Source: Acidobacteriota bacterium (lineage in GTDB: Bacteria > Acidobacteriota > Terriglobia > Versatilivoradales > Versatilivoraceae). Taken from it: a stretch of DNA of 64,000 nt. A program made the position numbers and the translations under genes. The first letter of the stretch is position 1. Each line of letters opens with the position of its first letter. This document shows, in pieces, positions 25,588-38,724 of the stretch. Location of the stretch: the NCBI GenBank assembly GCA_022826755.1, contig JAJDUG010000072.1, positions 62,001-126,000 on the forward strand. The letters run 5' to 3'. The notes beneath the pieces are model-generated. The model was given only the letters and a program-made list of their open reading frames with translations, searched no databases and was not told the DNA's origin.

Positions 25588-25788
25588 GGAAGGCGGCTTT
25601 ACGGAAGTCACTGACGGCTGCCCAAAACATGCCGACACGCCCAATGTGATGCACAAAGGGTAAACATCTGGGCCCGACTTGGGGTTTTGAGTGGAGAGGG
25701 CACAACCCAGCCAAATTCTACCAGTACCACACAAATCCATTGTTTACGCCTTGGATGGACGAGGGCGCAGGCGGCCTGGATATTCGCG
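25588..25788. other. Left boundary of the defence island
   Basis: Base composition falls here from GC-rich to more AT-rich. I see no integrase, no tRNA and no direct repeat matching the right boundary near 38.73 kb, so the mode of insertion is unclear. Confidence 0.35.
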
Positions 25789-27075
25789 ATGAAACGTTTA
25801 TCGAGCACGGAAAACACTCTTATCGGAACTCTAGCTCTCTTGTTGGTGCTATTCCTGGCCGTCATGTTCTGGGACAACCCCACATGGGCTTTCAGACGAT
25901 TCGGAACATGCGACAAATTCGAGATTCTGAAATTCCTGGGGATCAGCATGGGTGGTGTCCTGTTCGTCCTGCAAGTCGTAGCGTCTCACAGACGGGCCAA
26001 GGCGATGGAGAAATCCGCAACCGCACAAGCTAAAGCCACGGAACAACACGCAAGAGCCAACCAGAACACCGAGCAGGGACAGCGACAGGAACGCCTTAAG
26101 AACGCCATCGAGCACCTGGGTCATACCTCTGCTTCCGTGCGCCTGGGTGGGGCTTACGAACTCTTCCATCTTGCAGAAGACACTCGCGAGTTACGCCAGA
26201 GTGTGTTCGACATTCTCTGCGCCCATATCCGGCGGACAACTAGCGAAGATAAGTATCGGAAGAAGCACAAGGGCAACCCCTCGGAGGAAGTCCAGAGCCT
26301 GCTGACTTTGCTTTTTGTGCAGGACCATACGGTCTTCAAGGGTCTCCACATAGACCTGCATGGAAGTTGGCTGAACGGGGCCAATCTTCCGGGGGCGCGT
26401 TTGGAAAAGGTCGAACTGACCCGGGCCCATTTAAGAAGAGCTATTCTTCGAAAGGCGCGGCTGCACGGCGCGATCCTTGATAAGGCCCAGCTACATGGGG
26501 CAGACCTTATCGAGGCATACTTGCAAGAGACCAGTCTACGCAGTGCCCAACTACAAATGGTCATGCTTGATGGCGCACAACTGCAGGCCGCAAACCTCGC
26601 GGGAGCCCGACTACGAGGAGCTGATCTTTCTTGGGCATACATGCACAGGGCAATCTTTTTCGACATGGAAGCGGGGAACGCCGAATTGCAAGGTGGGATT
26701 CTCCGGAACACGGAGTTGCACGAGGCTGACCTTCGCCAGGCACGACTGCAGGGAGTTGGATACAAACTACTCCCCGACGAAACTTTTGCACAACGCATTA
26801 GACGGTCAATTGGCCGGGAAAACGACCTGTCTCTTGCGATTTTCGGGGGCGGACTGCACTCAGACCAAGACATGGACTCTCGCGTAAGAGGCTTGTCTGA
26901 TGAGACAGCGAATACGTTGCGAGAGGAGCTGCAACAGCACATCGGCAAGCCCCGAAGTCATCAACTACCGGAAGACGCGTACGCCATTACCGGCTCCTAC
27001 ACCAAAGAAGAAGCCGAACAATGGATCGCCGAATACGAAGAAGCCATGTCAGAAGTCCCGGAGGAAGATAGCTGA
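25789..27075 (+). CDS. Membrane-anchored pentapeptide-repeat protein
   Basis: The 428-residue product has two membrane helices (about 10-27 and 44-64) and a helical stretch rich in Gln/Ala/Glu (65-105). Next comes the motif RLKNAIEHLGHTSASVRLGG AYELFHLA, found in a large family of membrane pentapeptide proteins. A pentapeptide-repeat solenoid follows at about 186-322 (LNGANLPGARL, LHGADLIEAYL, LRGADLSWAYM), and the tail is acidic. The family is common beside defence and signalling genes, but its molecular role is not established. The ATG was picked just before the first helix. It is 211 bp upstream of the ATPase gene. Confidence 0.82.
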   Translation: MKRLSSTENTLIGTLALLLVLFLAVMFWDNPTWAFRRFGTCDKFEILKFLGISMGGVLFVLQVVASHRRAKAMEKSATAQAKATEQHARANQNTEQGQRQERLKNAIEHLGHTSASVRLGGAYELFHLAEDTRELRQSVFDILCAHIRRTTSEDKYRKKHKGNPSEEVQSLLTLLFVQDHTVFKGLHIDLHGSWLNGANLPGARLEKVELTRAHLRRAILRKARLHGAILDKAQLHGADLIEAYLQETSLRSAQLQMVMLDGAQLQAANLAGARLRGADLSWAYMHRAIFFDMEAGNAELQGGILRNTELHEADLRQARLQGVGYKLLPDETFAQRIRRSIGRENDLSLAIFGGGLHSDQDMDSRVRGLSDETANTLREELQQHIGKPRSHQLPEDAYAITGSYTKEEAEQWIAEYEEAMSEVPEEDS

Positions 27076-27286: not shown

Positions 27287-28468
27287 ATGAATCCTGAAAC
27301 GAGTCCGTTCCGACCCGGACAACCCGTGCCGATTGAGTTTTTTATCGGGCGCATCCGTGAGGTCGAACGCCTGCGCGGCATGGTGAAAGCCAGCTCTGAA
27401 GGAAAATTCCGAATCGGCTTTGTGAGTGGCGCACGAGGTATTGGCAAGAGTTCCCTGGCTTCATTCGTGCGCCACCTTTCCGAGCACGAGAGCCAAGTCG
27501 CAGGATGCCATGTCATTCTCGGCGGTGTTGAGGATTTGAACGAGATGCTTCGAAGGACCTTCGACCGCCTCCTGAAGGAAAGCATGGACAAACCCTGGCA
27601 TGAGCAAATCAGGAACTTTTTTGGAAACCACGTCCGAAGGGTCGGCCTGTTCGGTGTCACGCTGGAACTGAGTCTCAAGGATAGTGACTTGTCGACACTC
27701 GCCCATGACTTTGTGCCGACGGTCACCCGTCTTCTGGACAGTCTCAAGGGCCACAAGAGCACTCTCTTTCTCATTCTCGACGATATCAACGGTCTCGCGG
27801 GATCCGAATTCTTCGCCAACTGGCTTAAAGGCACCGTGGACGAGATCTCCACATCCCGACGGAAAATGCCTCTCTGCATTCTGGTGGTTGGACTGGAGGA
27901 GAGACGCCAGGAACTGGTATCGAAGCAACCCTCCCTTGCCCGCGTTTTCGAGTTGATCGACATCGCCCCCTGGTCAGACGATGAAGCCATGGACTTCTAC
28001 CGGAAGTCGTTCCATTCCGTGAACGCAAGGGTCGCTACCACCGATATGCGCGAACTCGTCCGGTGCACCGGCGGGCTTCCGGTTTTGGCACACGAGATCG
28101 GTGACGCCGTCTGGCACACGGCACGGAGTCTGGAAATCGATTCATGTGAAGTCATGGAAGGCATCTTGACCGCTGCCGAAGTGACCGGCCGCAAGCTGCT
28201 GGAACCCCAGGTGTTCAGCGCCATCCGCAGTGAGCGTTATCGATCCATACTCCGAAAAATGTCTGACGAGCCTCGGACGCGCTTTCGAAGATCGGAACTC
28301 TTGGATCGCCTGACAGGCGAGGAGGGAAACGTGATGGACAACTTTCTTCGACGCATGAAACGGCTCGGCATCCTGGAAACCGATCCCGAGGTCAAAGGCG
28401 GATACCGCTTCCCCAATCTTCTTCACGCCCAATATTTCTGGATGGAATCGCGGCGAACAAAGGCTTGA
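27287..28468 (+). CDS. P-loop AAA/STAND-like ATPase
   Basis: The 393-residue product starts with an ORC/STAND-like entry (EFFIGRIREVERLRGMV), Walker A GARGIGKSS at 48-56, Walker B LFLILDD at 160-166, a sensor-like VVGLEERR and a GLP-type helix (RCTGGLPVLAHEIGDAVW). Its C-terminal winged-helix region (RFRRSELLDRL...FLRRMKRLGIL) would bind nucleic acid or partners. No effector domain is fused. It lies between the pentapeptide protein and the restriction genes, and its family (AAA_16-like) often provides the switch in defence systems. It is about 315 bp from the next gene, so it may be a separate unit. Confidence 0.8.
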   Translation: MNPETSPFRPGQPVPIEFFIGRIREVERLRGMVKASSEGKFRIGFVSGARGIGKSSLASFVRHLSEHESQVAGCHVILGGVEDLNEMLRRTFDRLLKESMDKPWHEQIRNFFGNHVRRVGLFGVTLELSLKDSDLSTLAHDFVPTVTRLLDSLKGHKSTLFLILDDINGLAGSEFFANWLKGTVDEISTSRRKMPLCILVVGLEERRQELVSKQPSLARVFELIDIAPWSDDEAMDFYRKSFHSVNARVATTDMRELVRCTGGLPVLAHEIGDAVWHTARSLEIDSCEVMEGILTAAEVTGRKLLEPQVFSAIRSERYRSILRKMSDEPRTRFRRSELLDRLTGEEGNVMDNFLRRMKRLGILETDPEVKGGYRFPNLLHAQYFWMESRRTKA

Positions 28469-28782: not shown

Positions 28783-30006
28783 GTGGTCATTACTCCCGAA
28801 GCGATCGGGAAACGACTGCGACTGGCACGCGAAAGCCGGCAGATCATCCAGGAGACGGCCGGTGCAGCGCTCGGCCTACAGCGGTCTGCAATCAGCCTCA
28901 TGGAGTCCGGCCAGCGGCAGATCTCCACGCTTGAGTTGACCCGTCTTGCGGACTTGTACGGACGGTCGCTCGAATGGTTCGTCAACCCGAACATCCCGTT
29001 TGAAGAGGAAGACCCGGTCGTCACGCTCTTTCGCGCCGATCCAGGCCTGCAAAGCGAGGTCGTGCAGAAGCAAGCGTCGCGTTGCCTGCGTTTGTTGAGA
29101 GAAGGAGCTTCGCTTCGAAAACTGATTGGCCTCAGGTCTGCCGACTCCCTGCCACGTTACGAGTTGCCGGCTCCGCGGTCAGTGGGACGGGCCATTGCCC
29201 AGGGACAGCTTGTGGCGGAGCAGGAAAGGCGGCGGCTCGACTTGGGTAACGCGCCCGTTAAAGTACCCGAGACCCTGGCCTACCAGCGTATTTGGACGGC
29301 CGCACTGCAGTTTCCGATTGAAATCTCCGGCCTGTTTCTGAGCAGTCCCGAGTTCGGCGTGGCTATTTTGGCCAACCTCGGCCAATCGCCGGTACGGCGG
29401 CGGTTTTCTTACGCACACGAATATGGTCATGCGCTGATGGACCGCGACGACCCCGCTACCGTTACCAGTGTTCAGAACGCCAAGACGAGGGCCGAACAGC
29501 GGGCCAACGCCTTTGCAGCAGCCTTCCTGATGCCTGAAGAGGGTGTACGAGGTTTCCTGCACAACCTGGGCAAAGGAAGAGGGGCCCGCCACGAGGAAGC
29601 TGCGCTGGATGCCGTCACCCAGGAGGGTATCCGCGGCGCATTGCGAATTCCGGCGCGCTCACAGCATGTCACCTACGCAGATGCTGTGCTGTTAGCCCGG
29701 CATTTTGGCGCGAGCTATCCAGCGGGAGTATGGCGGCTACGCGGCTTGAACCTCGTGAGCGCCGAACAAACTCAAACCCTTCTCGACCACACCGCAGACG
29801 CCCACCGCTATTTGCGAGCTGTAAGAGATCTTTCCGACGTTGATGAATCTGAAGCCGAGGTGCGGGGGGACCATGCGTTGAATCAGCAGATTCTTTCGTT
29901 GGCTCTGGAAGCCTGGTGGCGCGGAGAGATTTCTCAGGGCCGGCTGCTTGAAGTGGGCCGCTTGTTGGATATCGAGGAGGAGATGATCCTGGGCCTGGTT
30001 AATTGA
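28783..30006 (+). CDS. XRE-type HTH / ImmA-IrrE metallopeptidase regulator
   Basis: The 407-residue product has an N-terminal XRE helix-turn-helix (AIGKRLRLARESRQIIQETA ... SAISLMESGQRQISTLELTRLA) and, after a linker, a COG2856 ImmA/IrrE domain with HExxH (HEYGHAL, His212-Glu213-His216) and the downstream FAAAFLMPEEGVR. In phage and ICE systems the ImmA peptidase cleaves a repressor. Here HTH and peptidase are fused, suggesting self-regulation on a stress signal. The start is GTG at 28783 with GGAGG upstream. It is 22 bp upstream of the GHKL ATPase and heads the restriction operon, where a control (C) protein is often found. Confidence 0.9.
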   Translation: MVITPEAIGKRLRLARESRQIIQETAGAALGLQRSAISLMESGQRQISTLELTRLADLYGRSLEWFVNPNIPFEEEDPVVTLFRADPGLQSEVVQKQASRCLRLLREGASLRKLIGLRSADSLPRYELPAPRSVGRAIAQGQLVAEQERRRLDLGNAPVKVPETLAYQRIWTAALQFPIEISGLFLSSPEFGVAILANLGQSPVRRRFSYAHEYGHALMDRDDPATVTSVQNAKTRAEQRANAFAAAFLMPEEGVRGFLHNLGKGRGARHEEAALDAVTQEGIRGALRIPARSQHVTYADAVLLARHFGASYPAGVWRLRGLNLVSAEQTQTLLDHTADAHRYLRAVRDLSDVDESEAEVRGDHALNQQILSLALEAWWRGEISQGRLLEVGRLLDIEEEMILGLVN

Positions 30007-30028: not shown

Positions 30029-32137
30029 ATGAGTAACGAATACGTCATGAGGATATCTCGACTCACGGTCGACAAGCTCGGCGTGAAACTCTACGACAAA
30101 GTGTCCGCGGTCATCGCCGAGCTTATTGCAAATTCCTACGATGCCGATGCAAACGAGGTCACCATAAGCGCCCCCATGGGACAGTATCTTGCCTCAAAGG
30201 CAGGTGGTTCGTTCTCCGACAAAGGACTCACGATTGAAGTCGTGGACGACGGTACCGGTATGACGCCGGACCAGATGCAAGAGTTTTTTCTGGTCGTTGG
30301 TGCCGAGCGTCGAGCCGACCCACGTCGCGGCTCAACTTCTCGGCACTTTGGGCGGAAAGTTATGGGAAGAAAAGGTGTTGGCAAGCTGGCGCCCTTCGGA
30401 ATCTGCAAGATCATCGAAGTAGTCAGCGCAGGCGGTGAAAAGGTCAAGCAGACCAACGGAGGGGAACATCGCGGATATTTAACGTCTCACATCGTCCTGA
30501 ACTATGACGACATCGTTGCAGAGAATGACGAACCAGGCGAACCGTACAAGCCAACGGTCGGCGAACGTGACGATACGCTTAGCGATCAACCTGGAACGAC
30601 AATAATACTGAGGCAGTTCAATTATCGAATGGTTCCGGGCATTGACGTTCTCTCACGCCAAATTGCTCAGCGATTTGGCATTCAAACTGAGAACTGGAAA
30701 ATAGTTCTTGAGGACAACACCCAGACTTCCTCCGAAACCAGTAGGCGAGCAGTTGGCGCGTTTGACGTTGAGACGATGCCGAATACGCGCATCACGTTTC
30801 AGAAGTATGAGCCAAACTCTACGCAAGTCATTGGTCCAGAAGGCGATCCGATTGCCGATCTTCAAGCAGGCTTTGATCATGACGGAATCTTCTATCCCAT
30901 AACGGGATGGATAGCTTATTCCAAAGAGCCATACAAAGACGATTTGATGGCGGGAGTAAGAATTTATTGCCGTGGGAAAATTGCCGCTCAAACGTCGGTA
31001 TTCAATAGACGTGCCGGCTTTACTGGAGAGCACAGCATCCGTTCTTATCTGGTTGGTGAGCTGTATGCAGATTGGCTTGATGAAGACGATGATTTGATTC
31101 AGACGGACCGTCGGGACATTCTTTGGTCTGATGAACTCGGGCAGGCGTTTCAAACATGGGGCCAGCGTATAGTTTCGCGAATTGGCACTCTGTCACGGGA
31201 CCCGATGAGAAGAACCGCATTGGATTTGTTCTTTGAAACTGGACGTGTCGAAGAGCGTGTCCAGGATAGTTACCCATCTGAAAGCCAAAAAGACATTAGA
31301 GAGCAGGCAATCAAGGTGGCCAAAACGCTCGGTCGCAGCATCAGCTTGGCCGAAGCAAGAGACGACGAAGTGGCAGGTAATCTGGTCGATCTGAGCATAA
31401 CCCTAGCCCCACACGTTACTCTCGACGAAATGATGAAAGATGCCGCGGAACAAACTGAAACTCCTCTTGCGGCGCTTAGCTCTCTCCTACGAACTGCACG
31501 CATCGCGGAGCTTTCCTCGTTCGGCCGGATTGCCGAAGATCGCCTGAAGGTGATCAAGCGTTTGGAGACACTGAAAGACGAAGAGAGCACCCAAGAAGAC
31601 AGCCTTCAACACCTCATCGAGGATGCACCTTGGCTTATCAATCCCGAATGGGCACCGGTAATCGCAAACCAGTCGCTCAGTAGACTGAGGCAGGAGTTCG
31701 AGAAGTATTACGAAAAGGAAACAGGGCGAGTAATTTCGCTGTCTGACTTTCAGAATCCGAGAAAGAAACCAGATTTTGTATTGTCAAGTCAGGAGGGAAT
31801 AGCTCAGATTGTTGAGATAAAGAGACCCGGACACGCCTTGAAGAACGATGAGATGGACAGAATCGTCACGTACCACGATTGCATGCAGTCATTCCTGGAA
31901 GATGAAAAGAACTCTGACTTTCAGAAATTTTTCCATGACTTCCACGTTACGCTTGTGTGCGAAGATCTGTCCCTAACGGGAGCTCAGCAGGCAGCGTACG
32001 ATGGCTATCTAGCAAGGGGAAAACTGACGCACATTAATTGGAGAGATTTTTTGCTGCGAACTGAGACCGTGCACCAGGACTTCTTGGCAGAGGCCAGGAG
32101 ACAACGCACTCTAATTTCGGGTGGGGACAGTCGTTAG
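30029..32137 (+). CDS. GHKL ATPase fused to a PD-(D/E)xK-like nuclease (MORC/MutL-like restriction subunit)
   Basis: The 702-residue product has a GHKL ATPase head: N-box ELIANSYDADA (31-41), G1 VVDDGTGM (71-78) and G2 GRKGVGKL (113-120), followed by an S5-type transducer region. A C-terminal domain has PDF at 581-583 and VEIK at 595-598, the D-(x)n-ExK layout of PD-(D/E)xK nucleases and close to DUF4263/Shedu-type domains. Known work predicts MutL/MORC-like GHKL ATPases in restriction-modification operons. The next gene is a cytosine methyltransferase, 1 bp away, then Vsr. This supports a role as the ATP-dependent restriction component. The nuclease identity is inference. Confidence 0.82.
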   Translation: MSNEYVMRISRLTVDKLGVKLYDKVSAVIAELIANSYDADANEVTISAPMGQYLASKAGGSFSDKGLTIEVVDDGTGMTPDQMQEFFLVVGAERRADPRRGSTSRHFGRKVMGRKGVGKLAPFGICKIIEVVSAGGEKVKQTNGGEHRGYLTSHIVLNYDDIVAENDEPGEPYKPTVGERDDTLSDQPGTTIILRQFNYRMVPGIDVLSRQIAQRFGIQTENWKIVLEDNTQTSSETSRRAVGAFDVETMPNTRITFQKYEPNSTQVIGPEGDPIADLQAGFDHDGIFYPITGWIAYSKEPYKDDLMAGVRIYCRGKIAAQTSVFNRRAGFTGEHSIRSYLVGELYADWLDEDDDLIQTDRRDILWSDELGQAFQTWGQRIVSRIGTLSRDPMRRTALDLFFETGRVEERVQDSYPSESQKDIREQAIKVAKTLGRSISLAEARDDEVAGNLVDLSITLAPHVTLDEMMKDAAEQTETPLAALSSLLRTARIAELSSFGRIAEDRLKVIKRLETLKDEESTQEDSLQHLIEDAPWLINPEWAPVIANQSLSRLRQEFEKYYEKETGRVISLSDFQNPRKKPDFVLSSQEGIAQIVEIKRPGHALKNDEMDRIVTYHDCMQSFLEDEKNSDFQKFFHDFHVTLVCEDLSLTGAQQAAYDGYLARGKLTHINWRDFLLRTETVHQDFLAEARRQRTLISGGDSR

Positions 32138-32138
32138 C

Positions 32139-33218
32139 ATGTCGCTAAAAGCAATCGACGTTTATGCGGGGGGGGGTGGCTTGACCGTCGGGCTGAAGCG
32201 AGCCGGCTTTGACGTGGTGGCGGCAATTGAAATCGAAGAAAATGCCTACGCGACCTATAGGGCGAACCACCCAGAAGTTCACGCTTTGAAACAGGACGTA
32301 ACCACCGTATCGGGAAATGACCTGCTGAAGCTGACTGGGCAGAAGAGTATTGACTTGTTGGCAGGTTGTCCACCTTGTCAAGGCTTCACCAGCTTGACCA
32401 CCAAGTACCGGAGAGATGACCATCGGAACTCGTTGATTTTTGAAATGTCTCGTTTGGCCCTAGAGATACAGCCAAGGGCAATAATGATGGAAAACGTTCC
32501 TGGATTAGCCAAGAAGGGAAACGTGCTGTATAGGGAACTAAAACGTCAACTTCGGAATCTCGGTTATCGTCTGACGGAGGACGTTTTGGAAGTTGCCGAC
32601 TATGGGGTTCCGCAGTTTCGCCGGCGCTTGGTGTTGTTCGGCGGGCTTGGTTTCGAAATTGGGCTACCCAAGCCAACGCATTCCAGGGGTGGTAAAAATG
32701 CACTGCCTCACTGGAGGACCGTGAAAGATGCAATCGGCCACATGGTTGAACCAATTACCCTGCAAGACGCTAGGAAGCGTGGCCAAGTCCAGCGGTCGGA
32801 TTGGCATGTCGTGCGAACGCTGTCGCCGGAGAACGTGATGCGTATGAAGCTCGCGAAAGCAGGAAAGGCTTGGACGAGTATTCCGGAGACATTAAGACCG
32901 AATTGCCATCAAGGCGGTTACACAGGCTTCACCAACGTTTACGGCCGCATGGAATGGAATCAGCCATCGCCTACGATCACCGGTGGATGTACGACATTCA
33001 GTAAAGGCCGATTTGGACATCCAGTGCAGGATAGAACAATCTCGGTTCGTGAAGCTGCTTTACTTCAATCCTTTCCAGAGAGTTATCGGTTTGATACGCC
33101 GTATATGGAACACGTCTGCAACGTAATTGGAAACGCGCTGCCATGCGACTTCGCTGAAGTAGTATCGCGTCAATGCCAAATGGAGTTGCTCGCCTTTTTG
33201 CAAGCGAAAGACCAATGA
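32139..33218 (+). CDS. DNA cytosine-5 methyltransferase
   Basis: The 359-residue product has the ordered C5-MTase motifs: I with FxGxGG-like VYAGGGGLTVGLKRAGF, IV GCPPCQG (catalytic Cys80), VI MMENVPG, VIII YGVPQFRRRLVLFG, IX, and X NVIGNALP. The target-recognition segment lies between VIII and IX (about 190-285), and its specificity cannot be read here. The first G of motif I is preceded by Tyr-Ala instead of the usual Phe. ATG is 1 bp after the ATPase stop, and the stop overlaps the vsr ATG by 4 nt (ATGA), so the three are translationally coupled. Confidence 0.95.
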   Translation: MSLKAIDVYAGGGGLTVGLKRAGFDVVAAIEIEENAYATYRANHPEVHALKQDVTTVSGNDLLKLTGQKSIDLLAGCPPCQGFTSLTTKYRRDDHRNSLIFEMSRLALEIQPRAIMMENVPGLAKKGNVLYRELKRQLRNLGYRLTEDVLEVADYGVPQFRRRLVLFGGLGFEIGLPKPTHSRGGKNALPHWRTVKDAIGHMVEPITLQDARKRGQVQRSDWHVVRTLSPENVMRMKLAKAGKAWTSIPETLRPNCHQGGYTGFTNVYGRMEWNQPSPTITGGCTTFSKGRFGHPVQDRTISVREAALLQSFPESYRFDTPYMEHVCNVIGNALPCDFAEVVSRQCQMELLAFLQAKDQ

Positions 33219-33631
33219 GAGACGGGGAGACTTGTGACGTTGACGAGAGCGTGTCGTTTCGCATGAAACATGTGAAACAGCGAGGCACAGCTCCTGAGTT
33301 GGTCGTCAGAAAACTCCTTTTTGCAAAAGGCTACAGATACAGAATTCACCGTGGCGACCTTCCCGGCTCTCCAGATGTCGTGTTTCCGAGTAGACGAAAG
33401 GTAATCTTCGTGCATGGTTGTTATTGGCATGGGCACGAAAACTGTGTGCGGGCATCTTTGCCGAAAACGCGAACCAAGTACTGGAAAGACAGGATTTCCA
33501 AAAATCGAGCGCGCGACGAGCGTTCAATCTCTGCCCTCGAGCAGTTGGGGTGGTCGGTTTACGTCGTATGGGAGTGTGAAACCAAAAACGTGAATTCCTT
33601 GGAACAACGACTCTTACACTTCTTGCAATAA
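33215..33631 (+). CDS. vsr: Very short patch repair (Vsr) endonuclease
   Basis: The 138-residue product has the Vsr core: APELVVRKLLFAKGYRYRIHR, GSPDVVFPSRRKVIFVHGCY with Asp54 and the following WHGHENC zinc/active-site region. Length equals known Vsr enzymes (about 135-156 aa). Vsr nicks 5' of T in T:G mismatches made by deamination of the partner's 5-methylcytosine, so its site should match that of the methyltransferase just upstream. The start Met at 33215 overlaps the methyltransferase stop by 4 nt; a longer frame from 33173 is less likely. Confidence 0.92.
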   Translation: MRDGETCDVDESVSFRMKHVKQRGTAPELVVRKLLFAKGYRYRIHRGDLPGSPDVVFPSRRKVIFVHGCYWHGHENCVRASLPKTRTKYWKDRISKNRARDERSISALEQLGWSVYVVWECETKNVNSLEQRLLHFLQ

Positions 33632-33663: not shown

Positions 33664-35232
33664 ATGCCCACTCTGCACTGGCTGACAAGAGAGGAGGACC
33701 TTCGCGCGGCGTCGCGTGTGCCCTTTCGGTTGTTGGAGGAGGCACGCGACTTGTCCGCGGGAGAGCCGGATTCCGAGAACATCCTGATTCAGGGCGATAA
33801 TCTGGAAGCGTTGAAGGCACTACTGCCATTTTACGCCGGCCAAGTGAAGTGTATCTACATCGACCCGCCCTACAATACCCGGTCGGCTTTCGAGCACTAC
33901 GATGACAATCTCGAACACAGCAAGTGGCTGGCGATGATGTGGCCACGCCTTGAGTTGTTGCGCGAACTGCTGGCGGAGGATGGCTCAATTTGGGTTTCGA
34001 TTGACGACAACGAAGTACACTATCTCAAGGTTCTTATGGATGAGGTGTTTGGAAGGTCAAACTTCCTTACCTCATTCATTTGGAAAAAGAGCTACGGTGG
34101 CGGTGCCAAGGCAAAGTGGTTTGTGGGTCTTCACGAAGAAGTCCTTTGTTTCACGAAGGACATGAGCAAGTTCCCTGAGATGTTCTTGCCTCCTGATCCC
34201 GGTATCGTGAGGAAGTATTACAAGTTTAGGGACGAAAAATTTGCGGATAGGGGACCCTATCGGTTGCAACCATTGGCAACAACGAGTATGGATGACCGTC
34301 CTAACCTCAGATACCCAATCGTCTTGAGAAATGGCGAAGAGATCTGGCCGGAAAAGCAGTGGCAATGGTCAAGAGAACGTTCCCACAGAGCGCTTACAGA
34401 TGGGGACTTAGTGATTTCTAGTAGAAAAGGGAAAAAAGTCGTTTCGTACAAGCAATACCTTAGAGATGAGAGAGGAGAAGAAAGACAACGCAAACCGCAA
34501 ACCATAATCGAAGGTCATTACACCCAGCACGGCACATACGAGAGCATGCGCTTGTTTGGACTTCAAAATAAGTTCTCTTTCCCAAAACCAGAAGGATTAG
34601 TCAGCTACATACTTGAAGCCACCACCAAGCTCGGCGACCTCGTTCTCGACTCCTTCCTCGGGTCCGGCACCACTGCGGCCGTCGCGCACAAGATGGGACG
34701 GCGCTGGATCGGCGTGGAGATGGGTGAGCACGCCGTTACCCACTGCGTCCCACGCTTGAACAAGGTCATCGAAGGGGAGCCAGGAGGTATCTCCAAGAGC
34801 GTCGGTTGGCAGGGTGGGGGTGGGTTCCGCTTCTACCGCCTCGGGCCGCCCGTGTTCGACGCGGAGGGCCGCATCCAGCGGGACATCCGCTTTCCCGTGC
34901 TGGCTGCCCACCTATGGTTCAGCGAGACGGACCGGGCCTGGAACGGTGCCGACGGATCGCCCTTCCTGGGACTGCATGACGGCCGGGCTTATGGTTTGCT
35001 CTACAACGGCATCCTCGGGGACAAAAGGCCGGGGAGTGGCAACGTGCTGACCCGCGCAACGCTTGGCGCCATCCGAGAGAAAGTCGCCCAGGCACATCCC
35101 GGCTTCGTTAGGGACAATCCCGACTACCTGCTGACAATCTACGCTGAGCAATCGCGCCTGACACCTTCCACGCTCGAGCAGGCAGGCATCACCTTCAAGC
35201 AGACGCCCTACGACGTAAAGGTGCGGATGTAG
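33664..35232 (+). CDS. mod: Type III restriction-modification methyltransferase (Mod)
   Basis: The 522-residue product is a beta-class N6-adenine/N4-cytosine methyltransferase: catalytic DPPYN at 67-71 (VKCIYIDPPYNTRSAFEHYD) precedes the SAM-binding DSFLGSGTT at 329-337. The central region, about residues 120-320 (34020-34620), is the variable target-recognition domain, and it is clearly AT-richer than both flanks. By family, Mod gives site specificity to the complex with Res. Its stop is about 850 bp from Res, with the HD remnant and Panacea gene between. It starts 32 bp after vsr. Confidence 0.92.
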   Translation: MPTLHWLTREEDLRAASRVPFRLLEEARDLSAGEPDSENILIQGDNLEALKALLPFYAGQVKCIYIDPPYNTRSAFEHYDDNLEHSKWLAMMWPRLELLRELLAEDGSIWVSIDDNEVHYLKVLMDEVFGRSNFLTSFIWKKSYGGGAKAKWFVGLHEEVLCFTKDMSKFPEMFLPPDPGIVRKYYKFRDEKFADRGPYRLQPLATTSMDDRPNLRYPIVLRNGEEIWPEKQWQWSRERSHRALTDGDLVISSRKGKKVVSYKQYLRDERGEERQRKPQTIIEGHYTQHGTYESMRLFGLQNKFSFPKPEGLVSYILEATTKLGDLVLDSFLGSGTTAAVAHKMGRRWIGVEMGEHAVTHCVPRLNKVIEGEPGGISKSVGWQGGGGFRFYRLGPPVFDAEGRIQRDIRFPVLAAHLWFSETDRAWNGADGSPFLGLHDGRAYGLLYNGILGDKRPGSGNVLTRATLGAIREKVAQAHPGFVRDNPDYLLTIYAEQSRLTPSTLEQAGITFKQTPYDVKVRM

Positions 35233-35490: not shown

Positions 35491-36003
35491 ATGAATGCCG
35501 AAGAAATTGCAGTCAATCTGATCAAGCTTAGTCGTGGGAAATCGGTCGACCGGACCCGGCTGCAGAAGGAGGCCTACCTTCTGGACCAATGCGGGGCAGA
35601 ATTTGGGCTGCCGTTTACCTATCACTATTACGGCCCTTACTCCTTCGAGCTCGCCTATGGGTGGGAGGATGCATTGGCCGAAGGTCGGATTGAAATCGAG
35701 GAGAAGCTTGGCGGGTATGGTGTCCCATATTCGATCTTCAAGCTGAAAGAGCCTTGTAGCGATCCGGACAACCTGGGTAATTTGCCGGCTGCCGATGCTC
35801 GTGCACGGCTGGAAAAGATGGAGGGGGTTTCCGAAATAGTCTTGGAGCTTGCCGCCACCATCATTTATCTGAAGGAAGAAGGTTACGGCGAGCCACCCAT
35901 CAAGGAGCTAAAAACTCGCAAGCCTCTCAAAGCGACTGACAAGCTGATCAAGAAAGCCACCGATCTGCTGAGCGACCTCCAATTATCGGTAGCTAGCGAC
36001 TGA
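35491..36003 (+). CDS. Panacea/YwgA-like small protein
   Basis: The 170-residue product has the YwgA/Panacea-type N-terminus (RTRLQKEAYLLDQCGAEFGL) and the characteristic YHYYGPYSFELAYGWEDALAEG. It then has a Pro-poor helical tail (LELAATIIYLKEEGY ... KLIKKATDLLSDL). Panacea-domain proteins are common antitoxin and defence accessory proteins. It sits directly after the HD remnant and before Res inside the type III operon. The GGGAGGAG box precedes the ATG. Its original partner appears to be the truncated HD protein, so it may be an orphan, or act with Res or Mod. Confidence 0.72.
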   Translation: MNAEEIAVNLIKLSRGKSVDRTRLQKEAYLLDQCGAEFGLPFTYHYYGPYSFELAYGWEDALAEGRIEIEEKLGGYGVPYSIFKLKEPCSDPDNLGNLPAADARARLEKMEGVSEIVLELAATIIYLKEEGYGEPPIKELKTRKPLKATDKLIKKATDLLSDLQLSVASD

Positions 36004-36084
36004 CGCGGTTAGCTGGACCTTCCGGCCGTAGCTCCCCCATCAACTGTGCGGGCCGGAAGCCAGCAAGCCCAGGCAACCTGCTTC

Positions 36085-38724
36085 ATGAAGCTGAAGCAGT
36101 ATCAGACCGACACCCTCTCCCTCCTTTGTCGCTTCTTCGAAGAGGCGCGCATCGCTGGGCCGAAGAACGCCTACGAGGCGATCACGAAAGAGCCCGAACA
36201 AGCCGGACGGCTGGGGCGCTACGCCGGAGCCTACAGACCGCTGGAAGGTCTGCCGAACGTGCCCTACGTCTGCCTGCGTCTGCCCACTGGCGGTGGCAAG
36301 ACCATCCTGGGCGCTTACGTCATTTGCACAGCCCGCGACGCCTGGATCGAAAAGGACTATCCCCTGGTCCTTTGGCTGGTGCCGACGAACACCATCCGAC
36401 GGCAGACGGCAGAGGCGTTGAAGAATAGCCGCCACGCTTATCGAAAGGCGTTGGACGAAGCGTTTGACGGTCGGGTGCGGGTGTTCGACATCGCCGACTT
36501 TACCCATATCCGACCGCACGACCTCCGCGACCGTTGCTGCGTCGTGGTCGGTACGATTCAAACCCTAAGGGTAAAAAGCACCGAGGGCCGCAAGGTCTAC
36601 GCCCACCACGAGGAGATGGAGCCGCACTTTTCCACTCTGCCCACCACCGCTCCAGACCTGGAGAAGCTGGAAGATGGCGCGGTCAAATTCTCGTTCGCCA
36701 ACCTGCTCCACGTCCACCGCCCGCTCATGATCGTGGACGAGGCCCACAACGCCGTCACCGGACTGACGCGGGAGATGCAGGCGCGAGTGAATCCGTGCGC
36801 CATCGTCGAGTTCACGGCGACCCCGCGCTTCAGGTCGAACATTCTGTACAGCGTCACAGCCCATGAGTTGAAAGCCGAAGAGATGATCAAGCTGCCGATC
36901 ATGCTCTCGGAGCACGACACCTGGGAAAACGCGGTCAACGGCGCCATTGCCGCGCGCGCGGCGCTGGAGGAAACGGCCAAGAAGGACGCCGACTACATCC
37001 GGCCCATCGTTCTCTTCCAGGCCCAGCCGAGAAACCAGGACGTGACGGTCGCAGCTCTCAAAAAACATCTGATGGAGGTCGAGCAGATCTCGGGAAGCAG
37101 GATCGCCGTTGCCACCGGCGACCAGAGGCAACTGGACGGCATCGACTTGTTCGACCCAGTCTGTCCCGTGGAATACGTCATCACGGTCGAGGCATTGAAG
37201 GAAGGATGGGACTGTTCCTTCGCCTACGTTTTCTGTTCCGTCTCCCGCATCCGTAGCTCGGTGGACGTGGAGCAGCTTCTGGGACGGGTGCTGCGGATGC
37301 CCTACGCCAGGCGGCGCCTAGCGGACGATCTCAACAAGGCCCATGCCTTTGTGTGTGAGCCGTCCTTCGGAGAGGCGGCGAGGGCGCTGGCCGACAAGCT
37401 GGTCGCCATGGGCTTCGAGGAGAACGAGGCGCTCGAAAATATCGAGCAAGCGCAACGAGAGATGTACGAGCAAGGAGGCTTGCTCGGGCCACCCCAGCCA
37501 CCCAAGCCGACATTGACGTTTACGCTTACGGTCTTGCCCGAAGGGCTTTCGACATTGAAAAAAGCGAAGCACGAACGCATGACCGTGCGCGAGACCGCTG
37601 ACGGACAGGTAGAAGTCACTGTCATCGGCCATATGGACCGTCCTCTGGAGTTGGCACTCTTTAAGGCGACCCCCACGGAACAACATCGGACCATCGTAGA
37701 CGCGGTCACGACTTATCGGACCCAGTTCGAGGATCGGTTTTCGCCCGCCGAACGAGGCGAGAAGTTGACTGTCCCGCGCCTTATGGCCGAAATTCAGGGC
37801 ACGCTCGAATTTGCCGACACCGACACGTTCATGGAGTTCCATGACTGGTCGCTGCTCGACTACTCCCCGAGGATGGAAGCGGACGAGTTCGCAATCCGGG
37901 AGACGGCCCGCAGCTTTGAGATAGACGTGGACGGCAACCGAGTCACCTACCAGTTCGCCAATGAGCGGGAGCAACTGCCGCTGAACGTAGAGGTCGAGGG
38001 CTGGACGCCGGAAGCACTGGTTCTGTGGCTGGACCGGCAGGTACGCCAGATAGATATTCACCCGAGCATATTGCTCAAGTGGCTGCGGGATCTGGTTGAC
38101 TACCTGATCAAAGTGCGTCGCATAAGCATCTCTGCCCTGATGCGCTGCAAGTTCATCCTGGCGCGAAAGATACAAGACAAGATCGACGGCATTCGCCGGA
38201 AGGAACGCCACAGCATCTATCAGCGCTATCTCTTCGAGCCAGGGGCCAAGGCGGCGGTTTCATTCGACAACGCCTTCTCCTTCAGGGAAGGCATGTATGG
38301 GAATCAACGACGCTACCGCGGACGCTGGAAGCCTGGGAAGCACTTCCTGGGACCCGACCACGTTCCCGCCTTTGACGGCGCTGCTGAAGGGGAAGAATTT
38401 CAGTGCGCCCAAGCCCTGGACTTCCTCCCGGAACTCAGATATTGGGTCCGTAACGTGGCGCGCCATCCGGACTCGTTTTGGCTGCCGACCGCGACTGACA
38501 AATTCTATCCGGATTTTGTGGCGTTGCTGGAGGACGGGCGTCTGCTCGTTGTCGAATACAAGGGCGCGTACATTGCCGACAGTTCGGATACTGCCGAGAA
38601 GCGGACCGTTGGCGAGCTCTGGGAGCAGGAAAGCGACGGTAAGGGCCTTTTTCTCGTCGCAGAGAAATCGGTTGACGGAAGGGATGTGCACCGGCAACTT
38701 ATCGATAAGGTCAATCTCACCTGA
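36085..38724 (+). CDS. res: Type III restriction enzyme, Res subunit (helicase-nuclease)
   Basis: The 879-residue product is a DEAD/DEAH superfamily-2 translocase: Walker A LPTGGGKT (67-73), DEAH at 218-221 and motif III TATP at 244-247, with later helicase motifs around ALKEGWDCSFAYVFCSV and QLLGRVLRMPYARR. A C-terminal PD-(D/E)xK nuclease site follows (YPDFVAL, Asp810, and VVEYKG, Glu824/Lys826). It is the expected Res partner of Mod. The start Met at 36085 begins conserved sequence; an in-frame Met at 36046 would add 13 residues. It is intact, unlike the HsdR-type remnant near 54 kb. It ends 55 bp before the chromosome-like flank resumes. Confidence 0.94.
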   Translation: MKLKQYQTDTLSLLCRFFEEARIAGPKNAYEAITKEPEQAGRLGRYAGAYRPLEGLPNVPYVCLRLPTGGGKTILGAYVICTARDAWIEKDYPLVLWLVPTNTIRRQTAEALKNSRHAYRKALDEAFDGRVRVFDIADFTHIRPHDLRDRCCVVVGTIQTLRVKSTEGRKVYAHHEEMEPHFSTLPTTAPDLEKLEDGAVKFSFANLLHVHRPLMIVDEAHNAVTGLTREMQARVNPCAIVEFTATPRFRSNILYSVTAHELKAEEMIKLPIMLSEHDTWENAVNGAIAARAALEETAKKDADYIRPIVLFQAQPRNQDVTVAALKKHLMEVEQISGSRIAVATGDQRQLDGIDLFDPVCPVEYVITVEALKEGWDCSFAYVFCSVSRIRSSVDVEQLLGRVLRMPYARRRLADDLNKAHAFVCEPSFGEAARALADKLVAMGFEENEALENIEQAQREMYEQGGLLGPPQPPKPTLTFTLTVLPEGLSTLKKAKHERMTVRETADGQVEVTVIGHMDRPLELALFKATPTEQHRTIVDAVTTYRTQFEDRFSPAERGEKLTVPRLMAEIQGTLEFADTDTFMEFHDWSLLDYSPRMEADEFAIRETARSFEIDVDGNRVTYQFANEREQLPLNVEVEGWTPEALVLWLDRQVRQIDIHPSILLKWLRDLVDYLIKVRRISISALMRCKFILARKIQDKIDGIRRKERHSIYQRYLFEPGAKAAVSFDNAFSFREGMYGNQRRYRGRWKPGKHFLGPDHVPAFDGAAEGEEFQCAQALDFLPELRYWVRNVARHPDSFWLPTATDKFYPDFVALLEDGRLLVVEYKGAYIADSSDTAEKRTVGELWEQESDGKGLFLVAEKSVDGRDVHRQLIDKVNLT

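Follow-up and report, generated by a model that had tools for sequence, protein, structure and literature searches.

GHKL ATPases of the MutL/MORC type have been proposed to take part in restriction (Iyer, Abhiman and Aravind 2008), as a first-pass annotation of the DNA studied here had pointed out, and the class concerned in that paper is paraMORC3, in which a GHKL and an S5 domain are followed by a C-terminal RE-fold domain with the residues E-D-ExK (PMC2292703). In that paper the paraMORC genes lie in restriction-modification (R-M) neighbourhoods, near genes for DNA methylases, for Vsr endonucleases and for helicases (PMC2292703). A second described system is VcSduA, a GHKL-nuclease of Vibrio cholerae classed as Shedu type I-D, which restricts phage as a single gene; its E27A (ATPase) and K557A (nuclease) variants lose phage protection, its growth curves are consistent with direct phage restriction, and a clamp-like dimer has been modelled (PMC12137116). 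The third is the BbrUII/HgiDII family of restriction enzymes. M.HgiDII has been characterised by experiment as an m5C methyltransferase with the target GTCGAC (PMC5867850); on an ATP requirement of BbrUII or HgiDII we found no biochemical report in the literature searched. The architecture described below is already known, as it is that of paraMORC3 in Iyer et al. (2008), and NCBI and PADLOC name such proteins restriction enzymes.

We analysed a 64,000-nucleotide stretch of an Acidobacteriota contig (the window), and we consider it highly probable that three of its genes belong together as a type II-like restriction-modification operon, R-M-V, encoding a GHKL restriction endonuclease (R), an m5C methyltransferase (M) and Vsr (V). 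The 702-aa reading frame of R, 30029-32137 (+), lies exactly where it had been annotated before. The features of the operon are as follows.

30029..32137, + strand: GHKL-type ATPase and PD-(D/E)xK nuclease fusion, predicted restriction endonuclease (R), 702 aa
30119..30385, + strand: ATPase motifs region, invariant in 48/48 homologues
30119-30133, + strand: N-box, E31..N35
30245-30259, + strand: G1, D73-x-G75-x-G77
30365-30385, + strand: G2, G113-R-K115-G116-x-G118-K119
31571..32098, + strand: predicted PD-(D/E)xK nuclease domain, about residues 515-690; site invariant in 48/48, with fold matches
31595-31597, + strand: E523, nuclease site
31772-31774, + strand: D582, nuclease site
31814-31816, + strand: E596, nuclease site
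31820-31822, + strand: K598, nuclease site
32139..33218, + strand: Dcm-type m5C DNA methyltransferase (M); PF00145 188 bits, TIGR00675 over cut-off
33215..33631, + strand: Vsr T:G mismatch endonuclease (V); PF03852 96 bits, TIGR00632 139 bits, over cut-off

Conservation was judged from an alignment of 48 sequences, namely the window protein and 47 homologues of bacterial or archaeal origin, which are 37-68% identical. The ATPase residues E31, N35, D73, G75, G77, G113, K115, G116, G118 and K119 are identical in all 48, and HATPase_c_3 (Pfam) matches residues 26-163 with 60.5 bits against a cut-off of 25, bearing out the earlier observation that the N-box, G1 and G2 motifs are intact. An AlphaFold2 model of R built from this alignment had a mean pLDDT of 82 and a pTM of 0.52, and its N-terminal part matched TRAP1/Hsp90, MLH1, GyrB43, MORC2 and SMCHD1. 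As modelled, the N-terminus of R is a GHKL plus S5-type transducer module, an assignment also obtained by profile search, and a long helical stretch (~residues 362-517) joins the ATPase and nuclease modules.

The first-pass annotation had also read a restriction-type nuclease with a PDF...VEIK site into the C-terminus, and had named structure prediction showing no PD-(D/E)xK fold there as grounds for giving the claim up. The prediction was run and the claim survived it, with corrections in detail. The putative active site E523-D582-E596-x-K598 is identical in all 48 homologues, which are 26-68% identical over the nuclease domain, and such invariance is far more than a chance PD...ExK match would give. 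The site is thus real, but its catalytic Asp is D582 and not D581 (the residue at 581 is the preceding Pro), D582 and E596 are 14 residues apart rather than 12, and the domain starts near residue 515 rather than at 560. Modelled alone by AlphaFold, residues 500-702 reached a pLDDT of 81 and a pTM of 0.74, and their best Foldseek match was the Bacillus cereus Shedu structure 8ti9_C (E 1.8e-3, probability 1.00, TM 0.46-0.50). VIA-align gave Z scores of 9.9 for BspD6I, 8.4 for EndoMS, 8.3 for Shedu and 7.8 for FokI; a Z near 8 is modest when taken singly, but the top of the list consists of several independent PD-(D/E)xK nucleases. According to DSSP, the model has helices at 523-532 and 606-624 and strands at 584-588 and 591-597, and, as is usual in the PD-(D/E)xK superfamily, a conserved Glu in a helix is followed in R by two neighbouring strands that bear the Asp and the (D/E)xK. 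By prediction and conservation together, then, R has a nuclease fold with an intact site. A search of PDB sequences with the nuclease profile returned chance-level matches alone, and it was the fold comparison that worked. The proposed closeness to DUF4263/Shedu holds for the fold, with 8ti9_C as best match, but not for the sequence profile, since SduA_C (PF14082) matches residues 521-605 only weakly, at 16.2 bits, below its Pfam gathering cut-off of 27; 24 of the 48 homologues match SduA_C at E <= 0.01.

Over its whole length, R matches NF050001, the NCBIfam profile for BbrUII/HgiDII restriction enzymes, with 244.5 bits (E 2.4e-72; residues 5-691 on profile positions 1-647 of 659), and does not reach the equivalog cut-off of 550 bits. 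All 48 homologues match this profile, with full-length homology over GHKL and C-terminal nuclease, and PADLOC assigns all 48 to REase_II (PDLC03419); phrog_6203, a family with no assigned function, also matches R end to end. In a maximum-likelihood tree, R falls into a clade of 23 sequences from about ten phyla (support 100/100), far from those members of the host's class that score above the NF050001 cut-off. Judged by profile score and tree position, R is a homologue of BbrUII/HgiDII and not an equivalog within the family, and because of both the score (244 vs 550 bits) and this distance an HgiDII-like specificity is not to be assumed. What R does, namely the cutting within an R-M pair, is largely answered by its full-length homology to BbrUII/HgiDII (NF050001). 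The same homology qualifies the earlier wording "restriction subunit": a role in restriction stands, but R is probably the whole restriction enzyme. No close relatives of R were found in viral contigs (single-sequence search) or phage records.

The arrangement of the three genes suggests translational coupling, as the stop codon of R (TAG) ends at 32137 and the ATG of M follows at 32139, leaving a 1-nt gap, while the TGA of M (33216-33218) overlaps the ATG of Vsr at 33215 as ATGA. This ATG is the likely start of Vsr, although the longest ORF begins at 33173. All three frames are open. The C5-methyltransferase domain spans nearly the full length of M, in which the motifs PPC, ENV and QxRxR are readable, and Dcm and Vsr, previously reported directly beside the ATPase gene, are both present there, apparently intact and with profile matches over the cut-off. 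The operon looks horizontally acquired, because G+C is 0.50-0.55 at 30-36 kb against mostly 0.60-0.67 around it, and because no R homologue was found in any of the six genus relatives searched.

R-M-V is part of a defence island of low G+C, next to a type III R-M operon with Mod at 33664-35232 and Res at 36046-38724. Between Mod and Res, a 170-aa product (35491-36003) resembles the C-terminal part of the DarG antitoxin, without the macrodomain (PADLOC 27.7 bits, NCBIfam 22 bits). Further possible defence-island genes lie upstream of R, at 25687-27075, 27287-28468 and 28783-30006; their products are, in this order, a pentapeptide-repeat protein, a STAND/AAA_16 ATPase and an XRE-IrrE (RmrA-like) protein, and the last gene ends 22 bp upstream of the GHKL gene. 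We considered the type III Mod/Res pair as part of the system and rejected it, since Mod-like matches occur beside 2 related loci only. The XRE-IrrE gene was likewise rejected as a control protein and is regarded as a separate neighbour, as the related loci yielded no homologue of it beside them.

Of 26 close loci, 21 had at least 1.5 kb of downstream flank and were used for the linkage count. An orthologous dcm lies less than 100 bp downstream, on the same strand, in 20 of these 21, in hosts from about ten phyla, and Vsr is found within 3 kb in 8/21. The lone locus without Dcm (L025) holds a second GHKL-Dcm-Vsr set. Distances between GHKL proteins and between their Dcm partners are correlated (r 0.78 over 53 co-located pairs, 0/5000 permutations as high), also inside the close clade (r 0.44, 0/5000 permutations); shared host descent could add to this correlation, but sequences from different phyla intermingle in the tree. 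The adjacent, co-inherited methyltransferase of a type II R-M system is therefore seen here. Dcm is also the neighbour of R in all 8 plasmid homologues inspected, and of all 4 full-length R homologues in the host's own class. Within 380 kb of the own genome, the single Dcm is that of this operon, and the whole genome has two. The only other Dcm gene adjoins a second GHKL ORF with a weak NF050001 match (G000:C52:38676-40456, -), and the two may make up a further GHKL-linked R-M locus.

In L050, L052, L056, L057, L060 and L025, the GHKL-Dcm(-Vsr) set has a second, divergent GHKL gene beside it, encoded on the other strand; in L060 and L025 this gene also shows weak NucS_C or SduA_C nuclease matches. 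Within fetched flanks of up to 6 kb, no Dcm was found in a Nocardia branch nested among Dcm-linked members (L065, L070, L072, L074, L075, L077, L079, L080, L082, L085, L087-L090, L093, L094, L097 and L098) or in two Cenarchaeum loci (L063, L073). The nuclease site is intact in the aligned sequences of these loci, and eight Nocardia genomes hold unlinked, more distant Dcm-like genes. These loci may be split R-M systems, or they may have shifted to a defence that needs no methylase.

Palindrome avoidance in the own genome was assessed in a 380-kb sample (stretches L118-L137). GTCGAC, the target of M.HgiDII, is not depleted, at ~389 per Mb in the window genome vs 357-393 in genus members without the system; these counts come from the control column of the pattern count, as CAGCTG read backwards is GTCGAC. 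Such lack of avoidance would fit recent acquisition or another target, and neither supports nor excludes cutting at GTCGAC. CAGCTG (the PvuII site) had an observed/expected ratio of 0.07 in the 380-kb sample, and the 4.6-Mb genome holds 140 CAGCTG vs 1798 GTCGAC. We rejected CAGCTG as the target of R-M-V, as it is also avoided by genus members without the system (119-556 in all six genus relatives), which points to a restriction pressure that has lasted long across the genus and has nothing to do with the operon.

Taken as an R-M-V operon, the genes would work as follows. Dcm, going by its family, would methylate cytosine-5 at a specific site in host DNA, and R would be the cognate restriction enzyme, which recognises that site in its unmethylated state and uses its C-terminal PD-(D/E)xK domain to cut; that R cuts we infer from its BbrUII/HgiDII homology and its pairing with M. 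The GHKL-S5 module most likely dimerises upon ATP binding, as in MutL/MORC and the modelled VcSduA, and the ATP-closed dimer may be a clamp that licenses or positions two nuclease domains. Vsr, by analogy with its family, would repair the T:G mismatches that arise from deamination of methylated cytosines.

The Nocardia branch is a point against the R-M reading, as its intact nuclease site without an adjacent Dcm means that a linked methylase is not a requirement for the nuclease to exist. It would fit a stand-alone defence nuclease like that of Shedu type I-D, with the GHKL module as the sensor of a phage cue or DNA structure, the nuclease as the part that degrades the DNA of the phage, and Dcm-Vsr as a separate modification and repair pair. 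R shares the two-domain architecture of VcSduA, whose E27A and K557A variants lose protection (PMC12137116), Foldseek ranks Shedu first for the nuclease domain, and half of the homologues (24/48) reach SduA_C at E <= 0.01. We nevertheless consider this unlikely, since Dcm is adjacent in 20/21 loci of the window clade and co-varies with the GHKL gene, the family matched over the full length is one of restriction enzymes, and R itself stays under the Pfam SduA_C cut-off (16.2 vs 27).

The absence of GTCGAC depletion relative to genus members, and of any avoided own-genome palindrome attributable to the system, would also be seen if the operon were a decayed or silent R-M remnant kept for Dcm/Vsr function alone, but we regard this as very improbable: the three ORFs are open, the catalytic residues of R are intact, no avoidance is expected after recent acquisition, and none of the six genus relatives searched has the gene. 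A modification-dependent (type IV-like) nuclease directed at foreign methylated DNA, with Dcm serving regulation and not protection, is suggested by a weak resemblance in fold between the nuclease domain and two modification-dependent enzymes, MspJI and AspBHI. An m5C methylase in the same operon would, however, mark the host's own DNA for such an enzyme, no methyl-binding domain was recognised (Pfam), and the closest named family comprises type II restriction enzymes, so we give this explanation hardly any credence. The R-M-V operon remains the reading that we favour.

The operon links three literatures, on BbrUII/HgiDII restriction enzymes, paraMORC3 ATPases and type I-D Shedu, and offers a compact, apparently intact example on which to test the reason for a GHKL ATPase in a restriction enzyme. 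Tentatively, and as a possibility rather than an expectation, we propose that the family of R is a widespread sub-branch distinct from BbrUII/HgiDII proper, ATP-gated and translocase-free, in which a MutL/MORC-like GHKL clamp would need to bind ATP, or hydrolyse it, for a Shedu-like nuclease to cut at an unmethylated site, bridging type II R-M and Shedu immunity. With BbrUII/HgiDII, R shares end-to-end homology, the GHKL N-terminus, the C-terminal nuclease and the adjacent m5C methyltransferase, but its identity to those members from the host's class that pass the cut-off is ~24-25%, and it belongs to a separate, well-supported clade; the gene order is R then M in the window clade, and M then R in most other family members inspected. 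Like paraMORC3, R has intact GHKL motifs, an S5-type domain and an RE-fold with E-D-ExK, whereas the three-gene unit in the window contains no SF2 helicase, the adjacent type III helicase coming from the separate Mod-Res operon, which is not conserved along with the unit. Finally, R resembles the Shedu type I-D protein VcSduA in having a GHKL ATPase followed by a PD-(D/E)xK nuclease of DUF4263/Shedu-like fold, and differs from it in being coupled to Dcm and Vsr and in scoring below the SduA_C cut-off.
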